From assembly GCA_030606215.1 (NCBI GenBank), contig JAUWGW010000005.1, positions 15,913-79,912 of the forward strand: DNA of 64,000 nucleotides, written 5' to 3'. The position numbers and the translations under genes were made by a program. Below the pieces are notes generated by a model. It was given only the letters and a program-made list of their open reading frames with translations, made no database searches and was not told where the DNA came from. Source of the DNA: a bacterium. Its GTDB lineage: Bacteria; NPL-UPA2; JAUVJM01. Below are positions 31,616-37,792 of the stretch, in pieces. Numbering within the stretch: the stretch's first letter is position 1; each line of letters begins with the position of its first letter.

Positions 31616-31623
31616 TGCTTCAT

Positions 31624-31753
31624 TAGCCCGGATTATTCATACTACGATGAAATGGCCAACATACTGTCATTCTGAGCGGAGCGAAGAATCTCTATAGATT
31701 CTTCGTCACTAACGCTCCTCAGAATGACACATGCTGTGTGAATAATGCAGGAT
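31624..31753. repeat. MITE-like palindromic element, copy A
   Basis: A 130-bp element starting TAGCCCGGATTATTCAT and ending AATAATGCAGG. Its core holds TGTCATTCTGAG and the complement CTCAGAATGACA around two GAAGAATC/GATTCTTC arms. The same element, reversed, lies at 36726-36853. The ends are imperfect inverted repeats around ATTATTCA/GAATAAT. No coding capacity; probably mobilised in trans. Confidence 0.8.
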
Positions 31754-32395: not shown

Positions 32396-33499
32396 ATGAA
32401 CCAGACACCGCTTTACAATCTACATCTGAAGTATAAAGCCCATATGAGAGAATTTAGTGGTTGGCAGATGCCCATTTATTACACAGGTATCATAGCTGAG
32501 CACAAAGCAGTTCGACAAAAAGCCGGTCTTTTTGACATCTCTCATATGGTCAGATTAAAGATAGAGGGGATAGGTGCTTCTGATTTGGTCCAGAGATTGA
32601 CCACCAATGATGTTTCTGTATTAAAAACAGGTGATATCCAGTATTCCCTGGTTTGTAACCAGGAGGGGAATATATTAGATGATATCCTGGTCTTTAGTTT
32701 AGATGACGGTTATCTCCTGGTAGTAAATGCCGGCAACAAGCAGACTGTCTTATCGTGGTTCAAGAAATGGGCCGGGCAAGCGGAGGTTAAAGATATTTCA
32801 AATCAGATGTCTATGGCTGCCATTCAGGGACCTATCTCGCAGATAATTCTTCAGAAATTAATCGACATAAATCTATCTTCAATTAAATATTATCATTTTA
32901 CTCAGGAGAAAATAGCAGGGATAACGGGTTTTATTTCCAGAACCGGTTATACCGGTGAGGATGGGTTTGAGCTCTGCTTTGCTTCAGAAAAGGCAAAAAC
33001 CTTATGGTTAGCGCTATTATCTGCAGGAAAAGATTATGGTCTTCAACCGATTGGCCTGGGAGCCAGGGATACTTTGAGGTTAGAGGCTGCACTGCCATTA
33101 TACGGGCATGAGCTCAGCACACAAATAAACCCTTTTGAGGCGGGCCTGGAAAGATTTGTTAAATTAGACAAAGGCGATTTTCTTGGCAGGCGGTCACTCA
33201 TTGAGGTCAAAAAGGTAGGTATTAATCGTAAATTGGTTGGTTTTGAAATGATTGACAGAGGTATCCCCAGAGCAGGTTATACCGTTTCAAAAGATGGAAA
33301 ACATATTGGTCAGGTAACCAGCGGCTCATTTTCTCCTACTCTTGATAAGAATATCGGCATGGGCTATGTGGGAACAGGATATACTCACGAAGGATGTGAG
33401 TTTGAGATTGAAATCAGAGGTAAATCCACCGGGGCCAGGGTAGTAAAAACACCTTTTTATAAAAAGAGTGGAGAGGGCGGGAAAAAAGAGGAGTATTAA
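32396..33499 (+). CDS. gcvT: Glycine cleavage system T protein (aminomethyltransferase)
   Basis: A 367-residue tetrahydrofolate enzyme that takes the aminomethyl group from the H protein, releasing ammonia. Markers: EFSGWQMPIYYTGIIAEHKAVR, GLFDISHMVR, RTGYTGEDGFELC, GLGARDTLRLEAALPLYG and GQVTSGSFSP. ATG 32396 has no upstream GGAGG; it directly follows the riboswitch terminator. gcvH follows after two bases. Confidence 0.96.
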   Translation: MNQTPLYNLHLKYKAHMREFSGWQMPIYYTGIIAEHKAVRQKAGLFDISHMVRLKIEGIGASDLVQRLTTNDVSVLKTGDIQYSLVCNQEGNILDDILVFSLDDGYLLVVNAGNKQTVLSWFKKWAGQAEVKDISNQMSMAAIQGPISQIILQKLIDINLSSIKYYHFTQEKIAGITGFISRTGYTGEDGFELCFASEKAKTLWLALLSAGKDYGLQPIGLGARDTLRLEAALPLYGHELSTQINPFEAGLERFVKLDKGDFLGRRSLIEVKKVGINRKLVGFEMIDRGIPRAGYTVSKDGKHIGQVTSGSFSPTLDKNIGMGYVGTGYTHEGCEFEIEIRGKSTGARVVKTPFYKKSGEGGKKEEY

Positions 33500-33501
33500 G
33501 G

Positions 33502-33900
33502 ATGTATCCAACAGATTTAAAGTATACTGTTACACATGAATGGGCTGGGATTGAAGAGAAGACAGGTATCGTAACGGTGGGAATCGGTGAGTACGCTGTG
33601 AAACAGCTCAGTGACATTGTTTTTCTTGAACTGCCTGCTGTCGGTGATAAACTGAAGAAAGGAGAACCTTTTGGGGCCATTGAATCAGTCAAGGCAGTAT
33701 TCGATTTAAACTCGCCGGTGACCGGCGAGGTCGTAGAAGTAAACCAGGCCCTTTCTGATAATCTTGACCTGTTACAGACTGACCCTTACGGCCAGTGCTG
33801 GATGGTTAGGATAAAGGCAGAGAATCAAGAAGAAATTCAGGCATTGATGAATGCAGGAGACTACGAAGACTTCATAAAAAAGGGACAGGGTAAGCATTGA
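33502..33900 (+). CDS. gcvH: Glycine cleavage system H protein
   Basis: A 132-residue lipoyl carrier. Lys64 in GAIESVKAVFDL is the lipoylation site; YTVTHEWAGIEE and GEVVEVNQALSDNLDLL flank it. It shuttles the methylamine group between P, T and L proteins. LipB (7.7 kb) or the LplA-type protein (36.9 kb) could supply its cofactor. AAAGAGGAG lies upstream of the ATG. Confidence 0.97.
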   Translation: MYPTDLKYTVTHEWAGIEEKTGIVTVGIGEYAVKQLSDIVFLELPAVGDKLKKGEPFGAIESVKAVFDLNSPVTGEVVEVNQALSDNLDLLQTDPYGQCWMVRIKAENQEEIQALMNAGDYEDFIKKGQGKH

Positions 33901-33933
33901 CATGCTATCGAGGTAGTCGGAAGGTGAAACCTG

Positions 33934-35268
33934 ATGCCGTACGTATCTAATACAGATGAAGACAGAGCAAGAATGCTGGGCGAATTGGGGCTCAAATCAA
34001 TTGAGGAACTCTTCAGTGATATCCCTGCTGATTTGCGACCTTCCTCTTTTAATCTACCGCCAGGCCTATCAGAACTTGAAGTCCGTCGTTTCACCCAGAC
34101 CCTGGCAGATAAGAATGCCACTGATCTTATTTGTTTCCTGGGGGGTGGTTTCTACGACCATTTTATACCCGCTGCTCTGGATACAATAATTTCACGCAGT
34201 GAATTCTATACGGCTTATACTCCTTATCAACCGGAAATATCCCAGGGCACGCTCCAGGCCATATACGAATATCAATCAGCTGTCTGTCATCTGACAGATA
34301 TGGATGCGGCTAATGCCTCTTTGTACGACGGCGGGACCGCCCTTTACGAAGCAATGATGATGGCGGTAAGGATTACCAAGAGGAGAAAGGTTATTGTAGA
34401 TGAAGGTGTTAGCCCTATATACCGAAAGATGCTGCATTGTTATACCGGCAATTTGGCTCTCGAGTTTGTTGAAATACCAGTAGCCCGAAACGGCCGGGCT
34501 GACAGACAGGCAATAGAGACACAACTTGATAAAAATACATCCTGCCTTATCTTACAAAACCCAAACTTCTTTGGCTGTGTAGATGATATTACCGATATGG
34601 CTGAGTCAGCTCAAAAATCAGGCAGTCTGGTCATTCTTTCGACCTATCCCATTTCTCTGGGCATTCTTAAAACCCCGGGTGAAATGCAGGTGGACATTGC
34701 TACCGGCGAAGGTCAGAGTTTAGGGCTCGGACTTTCTTTCGGAGGTCCATACCTTGGTTTTATGGCCGTGCGTTCCCAATATATCCGCCAGATGCCGGGC
34801 CGCATCGTAGGTGAGACAACAGATAAAAATGGCCAGCGCGGCTTTGTGCTAACGCTCCAGACAAGAGAACAGCATATCCGCAGAGAGAAAGCGACCTCTA
34901 ATATATGTTCTAATGAAGCTCTCTGCGCACTTTCTGCCATTGTCTATCTTAGTCTGATAGGCAAGGAAGGGCTGAAGGAGGTAACTGAGCTTTGCAGCGC
35001 TAAAGCCGATTATACCCTCAAACGTCTTTTAGAGATACCGGGCGTAAAGATGAGATTCCCGGTTCCTATATTTAATGAATTTACATTAGAACTTCCCAGA
35101 GATGCCGGTGATATTATCGGGCAGTTAATTGAAAAAGGGATAATGGCCGGATTCCCTCTGGGACGCTACTATAAGAATATGGAGAAGTGCATGCTGATAG
35201 CCGTGACCGAGAAAAGGACAAAGGAGGAGATAGGGATGTTGGCTGAGGCACTGGAGGCAGTCTTGTAA
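33934..35268 (+). CDS. gcvPA: Glycine dehydrogenase (decarboxylating) subunit 1
   Basis: A 444-residue N-terminal half of the P protein in its split form. [20 protein letters not shown] start, [36 protein letters not shown] and [23 protein letters not shown] are family marks. It pairs with GcvPB to decarboxylate glycine using PLP. GGAAGGTGA precedes ATG 33934; gcvPB starts two bases after the stop. Confidence 0.96.
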
Positions 35269-35270
35269 AA

Positions 35271-36725
35271 ATGAAACTTATTTTTGAAAAAAGCGTTGCT
35301 GGGAGAAGAGGGGTAAGGTTACCCAGATGCGATGTTCCTATTGAGCGGGACAAGTTGAAGGGACTTAAACGCAAAGAACTTCCTGATTTGCCGGAGGTTT
35401 CTGAACTGGACACAGTCCGGCATTTTACAGAACTGTCCAGACACAATTTTGGAGTAGACACCGGCTTCTATCCTTTAGGCTCTTGCACCATGAAATACAA
35501 TCCGAAGATAGGGGAAGAGGCAGTTAGATATCAAGGTTTTAGTCGTCTGCACCCGCTCCTGCCCCAGCTTCGCCAGGGCGGGATACTTACGCAGGGTGCC
35601 TTACAGGTAATCTATGAGACAGAACGGTTTCTATCAGAGATTACCGGTATGGCTGAATTTACCATGCAGCCTTTAGCCGGTGCTCATGGAGAACTGACCG
35701 GGATAATGCTTATTGCCGCCTATCACAAGTCAAGAGGCATCAAGAAAACAAAAGTCATTATCCCTGATTCGGCGCATGGAACTAATCCGGCAAGTGCCGC
35801 TATTGCCGGGTATGAGGTTGTATCAGTGCCTTCTGACAAGAACGGCGTCATGGATTTCAGCGAATTTCGAAAGGTCATTGATGAGAAAGTAGCTGCGGTG
35901 ATGCTTACCTGTCCTAATACCTTAGGGTTGTTTAACCCTGATATAAAGAAGATTGCGGACAGGACACACCAGGCAGGTGGATTGATGTATTATGATGGAG
36001 CAAATCTAAATGCTATTTTAGGTAAATGCCGGCCGGGGGATGTCGGGTTTGATGTTGTGCACTTGAATCTACACAAGACCTTTGGCACGCCTCATGGGGG
36101 AGGCGGGCCAGGGGCAGGACCGGTAGGAGTGAAAGAGCATTTAAGAGAATTTCTTCCTATCTCGCTGGTAGTGAAAAGGCCGGATGGCACATATGCCCTT
36201 GAATATAACCGTCCTAAATCCATCGGATATGTAGCCCCATTCTACGGCAATTTTGGGGTTATACTCAAGTGCTATGTCTATATCCTGCTCCTGGGCCGGG
36301 AAGGTTTAATCAGAGCTGCTGAGAATGCTGTGCTTAATGCCAATTACATGATGGAAAAACTAAAATCTTATTACCATCTTCCCTATGACCGCAGATGTAT
36401 GCATGAATTTGTCTTATCAGCTAATAAACAAAAGAAGCACGGGGTAAAGGCACTGGATATTGCCAAGCGCCTGCTGGATTTTAGTTTTCATCCGCCGACC
36501 ATATATTTCCCTCTCATTGTTGAAGAGGCCATGATGATTGAACCTGCGGAGACCGAATCCGGAGAAACGCTGGATAAATTTATTGAGGTTATGATTCAGA
36601 TTGCTAAAGAGGCTGAGCAGGAACCGCAGACTATTAAAGATGCCCCGCATAATTTAGATATATGCAGGTTGGATGAAGTAAAAGCAGCCAGAGAACCTAA
36701 TCTAAAGTATGTTCGTGTTGCATAG
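35271..36725 (+). CDS. gcvPB: Glycine dehydrogenase (decarboxylating) subunit 2
   Basis: A 484-residue PLP-bearing half of the split P protein. Lys269 in [18 protein letters not shown] is the PLP lysine; [15 protein letters not shown] and [12 protein letters not shown] are typical. Its TAG (36723-36725) touches the MITE-like copy B, so the insertion marks the end of the operon. No gcvL (dihydrolipoamide dehydrogenase) is present in the window. Confidence 0.96.
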
Positions 36726-36853
36726 CCTGCATTGTTCACACTACGTTTGTCATTCTGAGGAGCATAAGCGATGAAGAATCTCATCAGATTCTTCGCTACG
36801 CTCAGAATGACAGAGTGTGGGGTATTTAATCGTAGTATGAATAATCCGGGCTA
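36726..36853. repeat. MITE-like palindromic element, copy B (reverse of copy A)
   Basis: Read on the minus strand it starts TAGCCCGGATTATTCATACT, identical to copy A for the first 24 bases, and shares the TGTCATTCTGAG/CTCAGAATGACA core and the AATGCAGG end. The two copies face each other across the HU-gcv segment. Bases 36854-36900 then hold a short GC-rich stretch (CCCTATCCC/GGGGGAGAGG) of no clear function. Confidence 0.8.
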
Positions 36854-36910
36854 GCCCTATCCCGTTGGGGGAGAGGCAGGGGAGATGGAGAGTCTGCAAA
36901 GGTATAAATT

Positions 36911-37792
36911 ATGAAGTGGCGGCTAATTCAATCAGGTCATCTGGACGGCTATACCAATATGGCAATAGATGAGGCTATGTTTGCCTTAAGTGCGGCAAAT
37001 TATGTGCCAGCGACATTGAGGTTATACGGCTGGAGCCCGCCGGCAATCTCCATCGGTTACTTTCAAAATTACCTATCTCCTCCCCTAATCCCCCTACCCC
37101 CTTTACTAAAGGGGGGAAGGGGGGATTTAGGCTTCCCTTTAATAAAGGGGGAAGGGAGGACTAAGGAGAGGGACAAATCGTTGAAATTGCGGCATGACAG
37201 AATAGATATTGTTCGGCGCCTGACCGGAGGCGGGGCCATACTCCATGACCGGGAATTAACCTTTTGTTTAGTCACCGCTTTTAGGGGTTCTATCATACCG
37301 GATGATATTTTTGATTCTTATAATCTTATCTCCGGGGCTGTCATTAAGGGCTTGCAGATTCTGGGAATAGAGGCGCAAATAAGAGGTGATGAAACTGCTC
37401 TAAGTCATGTTGGATCCTCACTATCTAACAGGGGAAGCGACCGGGCAGTATCTAAGCAGCGTGAGTTCTTCTGCTTTGCCAGGCAGTCAGGGTATGATAT
37501 TATATTTGATGGCAAAAAGCTGGTAGGAAGCGCCCAGAGAAGAAAGGATGGTATTCTCCTGCATCACGGCTCAATTCTGCTGGACGGAGAACAAAACCCG
37601 GAAACCAGTATTGGTGTAAATTCTATTTTGGGTAAGCAGGTCGACTTTAAAGAAATCAGTAAAAATATTGTGGAGGGTTTTTGTAGAACATTGTCAATAG
37701 ACCTGATACCCGGCGAGTTGACTGAAGAGGAATTAGAATTATCCCGGCAGTTGGTAATGACTAAATATAACAAGAGAACCATGGATTTATGA
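36911..37792 (+). CDS. Lipoate--protein ligase / octanoyltransferase (LplA/LipM family)
   Basis: A 293-residue member of the biotin/lipoate attachment fold: NMAIDEAMF start, VRRLTGGGAILHDRELTF and DGKKLVGSAQRRKDGILLHHGSI with the catalytic lysine at about 202. It could salvage lipoate or transfer octanoate to GcvH. Residues about 59-85 (IPLPPLLKGGRGDLGFPLIK region) are extra and encoded by a palindromic repeat; residues about 160-185 also look extended. The frame is open, so it may still work. It lies just after the gcv operon and before serA. Confidence 0.88.
   Translation: MKWRLIQSGHLDGYTNMAIDEAMFALSAANYVPATLRLYGWSPPAISIGYFQNYLSPPLIPLPPLLKGGRGDLGFPLIKGEGRTKERDKSLKLRHDRIDIVRRLTGGGAILHDRELTFCLVTAFRGSIIPDDIFDSYNLISGAVIKGLQILGIEAQIRGDETALSHVGSSLSNRGSDRAVSKQREFFCFARQSGYDIIFDGKKLVGSAQRRKDGILLHHGSILLDGEQNPETSIGVNSILGKQVDFKEISKNIVEGFCRTLSIDLIPGELTEEELELSRQLVMTKYNKRTMDL
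37087..37154. repeat. Double palindromic repeat translated inside the lplA-like gene
   Basis: Two adjacent palindromes: 37087-37127 (AATCCCCC ... GGGGGGATT, with CCCCCTTTA/TAAAGGGGGG inside) and 37132-37154 (CTTCCCTTTA ... TAAAGGGGGAAG). The AATCCCCCT/AAAGGGGG type is a common intergenic repeat in environmental bacteria. Here it is read in frame. Confidence 0.75.

Follow-up and report, generated by a model that had tools for sequence, protein, structure and literature searches.

An in-frame palindromic repeat in a candidate lipM gene next to gcv genes

How does a strongly palindromic stretch of DNA come to lie inside the reading frame of a conserved enzyme, and does the enzyme make use of it? 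The question is raised by the open reading frame at 36911..37792 (+) of the window, that is, of the whole stretch of 64,000 nucleotides analyzed here. A first-pass annotation had read it as a lipoate ligase with a translated double palindrome of about 27 added residues between two conserved motifs, and had suggested that the function of the enzyme could be changed.

The gene and its likely product

The frame is intact and codes for 293 amino acids with the BPL/LplA/LipB fold (PF21948/PF03099). In a Pfam search the product matches PF21948 with an E-value of 8.7e-27, models of the catalytic domain being the only matches, and the catalytic fold is confirmed by a structural Z-score of 28.5 against LplA of T. 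acidophilum. Upstream, at 32396..36725 (+), lie gcvT, gcvH, gcvPA and gcvPB in this order, of which gcvPB was identified by search and the others by reading the translations of the open reading frames. All point in the same direction as the lipM-like gene, which is followed by serA. Lipoylated GcvH is the likely substrate of the enzyme.

The name lipoate ligase fits the protein less well than that of a LipM-type octanoyltransferase. In an alignment with 35 relatives, Cys188 (in a CFA motif; CFD in the aligned Paenibacillus homologs) and Lys203 are at least 90% conserved. LipM octanoyltransferases carry their catalytic cysteine at the alignment position of Cys188 (Cys150 in B. subtilis), besides a conserved lysine. 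The C-terminal accessory domain of LplA-type ligases is absent from the product according to Pfam, and the adjoining genes are gcvPB and serA, with no LplB among them. The same genome contains lipA (lipoyl synthase LipA; C12:11456-12319, score over the cut-off), and co-occurrence with LipA is a criterion that separates LipM from LplA (PMC3904984). The near-invariant Cys188, the missing accessory domain, lipA and the gcv context together make LipM the more likely assignment. The protein further resembles LipM in its single domain and in the conserved RRxTGG and KxxGSAQ motifs; it differs from it by an insert of 30 residues after GYFQN.

Anatomy of the insert and its absence from relatives

The insert is located between GYFQN and VRRLTGGG. 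It comprises 90 nucleotides (37070..37159, +) which correspond to residues 54-83, YLSPPLIPLPPLLKGGRGDLGFPLIKGEGR. In the relatives, drawn from Firmicutes, Planctomycetota, Poribacteria, archaea and other groups, the spacing from GYFQ to RRxTGG is approximately 17-20 residues (a few are shorter) compared to 49 in the window protein, and all 35 aligned relatives, which belong to other phyla, lack the segment; none of its residues is common to unrelated LplA-type proteins. This usual spacing and the absence from the relatives identify the segment as an insertion, as the first-pass annotation had held, with a length of 30 residues instead of the suggested value of about 27.

On the DNA level the insert belongs to a compound palindromic element of about 108 bp (37071..37178), bounded by arms that are repeated elsewhere in the genome. 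The left outer arm, ACCTATCTCCTCCCC (37071..37085), is common to the related gene L007 described below and to intergenic copies; the right outer arm, GGACTAAGGAGAGGGACAAAT (37158..37178), is common to L007 and other copies. By reading, the ends of the element are ACCTATCTCC and GGGACAAAT. Between the arms the hairpin analysis yields a double palindrome (37084-37154), which consists of CCTAATCCCCCTACCCCCTTTACTAAAGGGGGGAAGGGGGGATTTAGG as inner hairpin 1, of the CCCCC-TTTACTAAA-GGGGG family (37084..37131), and CTTCCCTTTAATAAAGGGGGAAG as inner hairpin 2 (37132..37154).

The palindromes of the insert are far above chance. The core pattern has five matches in the window compared to 0.68 expected, and none of 100 shuffles reached five. 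The top hairpin score of the frame is 14; codon shuffles (n = 60) reach 9 at most, and the remainder of the gene reaches 6. Together with the intact frame this bears out the double palindrome of the earlier reading.

As judged from the alignment, the insert forms a loop near the active site, which also agrees with that reading: it starts two residues past the invariant Q52 and ends ahead of the invariant RR..GG (R102/R103). An effect on the activity of the enzyme is possible, since the insert begins so close to Q52.

Copies elsewhere and kinship to coding repeats

Neither the dispersal of the repeat nor the different palindrome of L007 had been noticed in the first-pass annotation. DNA searches found related copies at several sites of the window's own genome, and on the basis of these matches the lipM insert is regarded as a member of a dispersed repeat family. 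A second copy lies in frame within carA (C1:52106), where it adds 14 codons; the carA gene of a genome of the same family (G001; CarA 76% identical) lacks those codons and thus presents the empty site. Two further copies lie inside open reading frames, one coding for a CxxCxxCC protein (L003; C17:83522) and one for a PMT_2 glycosyltransferase-like protein (C32:3211). For the CxxCxxCC protein no homolog was found in the phylum, hence there is no empty site to compare. Other copies in this genome are intergenic, and some of them adjoin genes.

Of 386 genomes, 36 contain the core palindrome CCCCCTTTNNNAAAGGGGG, with up to 105 copies per genome; the backward control pattern is present in 3. In distant genomes most of the inspected copies look intergenic, so that a high coding frequency is not general to the family. 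In the open-access literature, queried without the sequence itself, we found no paper on the CCCCCTTT/AAAGGGGG family, which is a weak negative.

Some copies of the window's genome show other combinations of arms and interior. At L160:895-970 and on the reverse strand of L148 (1453-1530), in intergenic or 5'-end sites, versions of the outer arms enclose a third inner palindrome, CCTGCCTCGCCGGCAGGCGGG, and a similar palindrome lies within the CxxCxxCC frame. Because of these two observations nesting seems to be a habit of these repeats. A copy at L005:1477-1540 lies at the end of one open reading frame and may provide its stop codon; a transaldolase-like gene follows directly.

Palindromic repeats inside genes have precedents in the Rickettsia palindromic elements (RPE) and in intragenic REPs (PMC2229807, PMC3733652, PMC6649704). 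The RPEs (Ogata 2000, 2002; reviewed in PMC2229807) are palindromic repeats of about 100-150 bp which occur between genes and in frame inside conserved genes, are lost or absent in relatives, and are tolerated as translated inserts; the guanylate kinase (Gmk) of Rickettsia that bears an RPE is translated and active with an altered affinity (PMC2229807). The window element shares the several genomic palindromic copies and the in-frame position in conserved genes (lipM, carA) whose homologs lack it. Compared by description, it differs from RPEs in having no CGTC end tag, another host, few observed coding copies, and nested palindromes with C/G runs. The intragenic GTAG/CGTC REPs are similar in that they lie within open reading frames, as dimers or groups encoding 20-30 amino acids (PMC3733652). 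The window element differs in that its ends carry neither GTAG nor CGTC and no RAYT-like Y1 transposase (PF01797) was found in its own genome, which is 93% complete; 5 out of 9 genomes of the phylum possess one. With the end tags absent and no Y1 transposase found, we file the element neither as an RPE nor as a GTAG/CGTC REP. On this comparison it is a coding palindromic repeat of a kind already known from Rickettsia and other bacteria, the case itself being new.

Beyond Rickettsia and the REP families described so far, it thereby offers a clear case of repeat DNA turned protein sequence; the empty site in carA and the same-site insert in lipM serve as comparisons. It also calls for caution: where an annotated protein contains a peptide similar to PPLLKGGRGD, this may stem from a repeat and not from a domain.

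The sister gene and the fate of the insert

The nearest lipM gene, L007, is 74% identical and stems from a genome of the same phylum and another family (G008). In a quick tree it is the sister of the window protein (support 0.999), and the next branch, L008, is un-inserted with a spacing of 18 residues. L007 has an insert at the identical site, 19 residues above the usual spacing. Exact agreement with the outer arms of the window element extends to 13 bases of the left arm (CTATCTCCTCCCC) and 18 bases of the right arm (ACTAAGGAGAGGGACAAA). Between them L007 has another palindrome, TCTCCGAAGGCGACTCGCCGTGGCGAGA, which recurs nearly unchanged in G007 of the same genus.

The simplest reading of these sequences would be one ancestral insertion whose interior was swapped afterwards; independent insertions at the same site in both lineages are a possible alternative. 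Different REPs at about one site of recB have been reported for two Xanthomonas species (PMC3733652). We tentatively raise the idea, doubtful as it still is, of a modular coding palindrome with fixed outer arms and an inner palindrome exchanged between families, so that, in related bacteria, one selfish insertion after another would rewrite the same loop of the protein. If inner modules do swap in place, nature would provide a series that tests how much foreign sequence a loop next to an active site tolerates.

We consider it quite probable that a selfish palindromic repeat inserted in frame into lipM of a common ancestor and has since been translated and tolerated. The repeat would be a non-autonomous, RPE/REP-like and MITE-like element present at several genome sites, which entered the lipM-type gene in the ancestor of the window bacterium and the G008 lineage. 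It would have gone into a surface connector right after the GYFQ motif, where one open frame of the element would be translated into a Pro/Gly/Lys-rich, probably disordered loop of 30-36 residues. As both lineages kept the outer arms and yet have unlike inner palindromes, the interior may since have been replaced or nested into. No transposition was seen, nor a target-site duplication established. Octanoylation of GcvH for LipA presumably continues, and the enzyme would tolerate the insert without using it.

The mature product could also lack the segment through translational bypass, as in a yeast mitochondrion with ribosome-bypassed palindromes (PMC6649704), or the insert could be an artefact of assembly. 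Both are extremely improbable: the inserts of the window lipM, L007 and carA are all in frame and free of stop codons, neither of which bypassing would need, and the independent genome G008 bears an insert at the identical site.

Between the window gene and L007, dN/dS is 0.20 outside the insert and 0.57 inside, the latter from only about 24 aligned codons, with 0.13 for the neighboring gcvPB. These ratios indicate purifying selection on lipM outside the insert and looser constraint within it. In the AlphaFold2 model of the window protein most of the core has a pLDDT above 90, and residues 66-95 fall below 50. In the naturally un-inserted relative L045, folded as a stand-in for the window protein without the segment, the connector at the insert site is ordered. 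The model suggests that the insert is disordered; one must keep in mind that AlphaFold2 confidence is low wherever the alignment lacks depth.

It could be argued that the segment is a functional addition, a loop at the active site that alters the recognition of GcvH or acyl-ACP. Its location between the invariant Q52 and R102/R103, and the retention of an insert at this site by two lineages of different families, would agree with such a role. The inner sequences are nevertheless unrelated between these lineages, constraint in the insert is looser, the segment is modelled as disordered, and the same DNA family occurs in unrelated genes such as carA, which makes a functional loop quite unlikely. 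The changed function proposed earlier finds no support either, as the residues for catalysis and those of the substrate loop are preserved, purifying selection acts on the gene outside the insert, and the core is modelled with high confidence.

The palindrome might instead act on the RNA or DNA level, as a hairpin that adjusts the translation of the gcv-lipM-serA cluster or the stability of its mRNA; the translation of the palindrome itself would then be a by-product. Its predicted fold (-54.4 kcal/mol, z -2.15) and the intergenic copies adjoining genes fit this idea. The insert of L007, however, folds barely better than its shuffles (z -0.91), so the hairpin structure is not conserved, and Rfam returned only miRNA-like matches, all far under the gathering scores and taken as chance. 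A role on the RNA or DNA level is therefore very unlikely, and the tolerated selfish insertion is preferred.

Further repeats lie close to the lipM gene of the window. A second nested palindromic repeat has two copies, both intergenic, at 31621-31752 (-) and 36728-36862 (+), with a mean column identity of 85%; its arms CCTGCATTRTTCACAC and GTATGAATAATCCGGG enclose GTCATTCTGAG...CTCAGAATGAC. At the L007 locus gcvPB and lipM overlap and leave no spacer, so that the copy at 36728-36862 is specific to the window lineage. Just 5' of lipM, at 36853-36885, CCCTATCCCGTTGGGGGAGAGGCAGGGGAG resembles one half of a further G-rich repeat.
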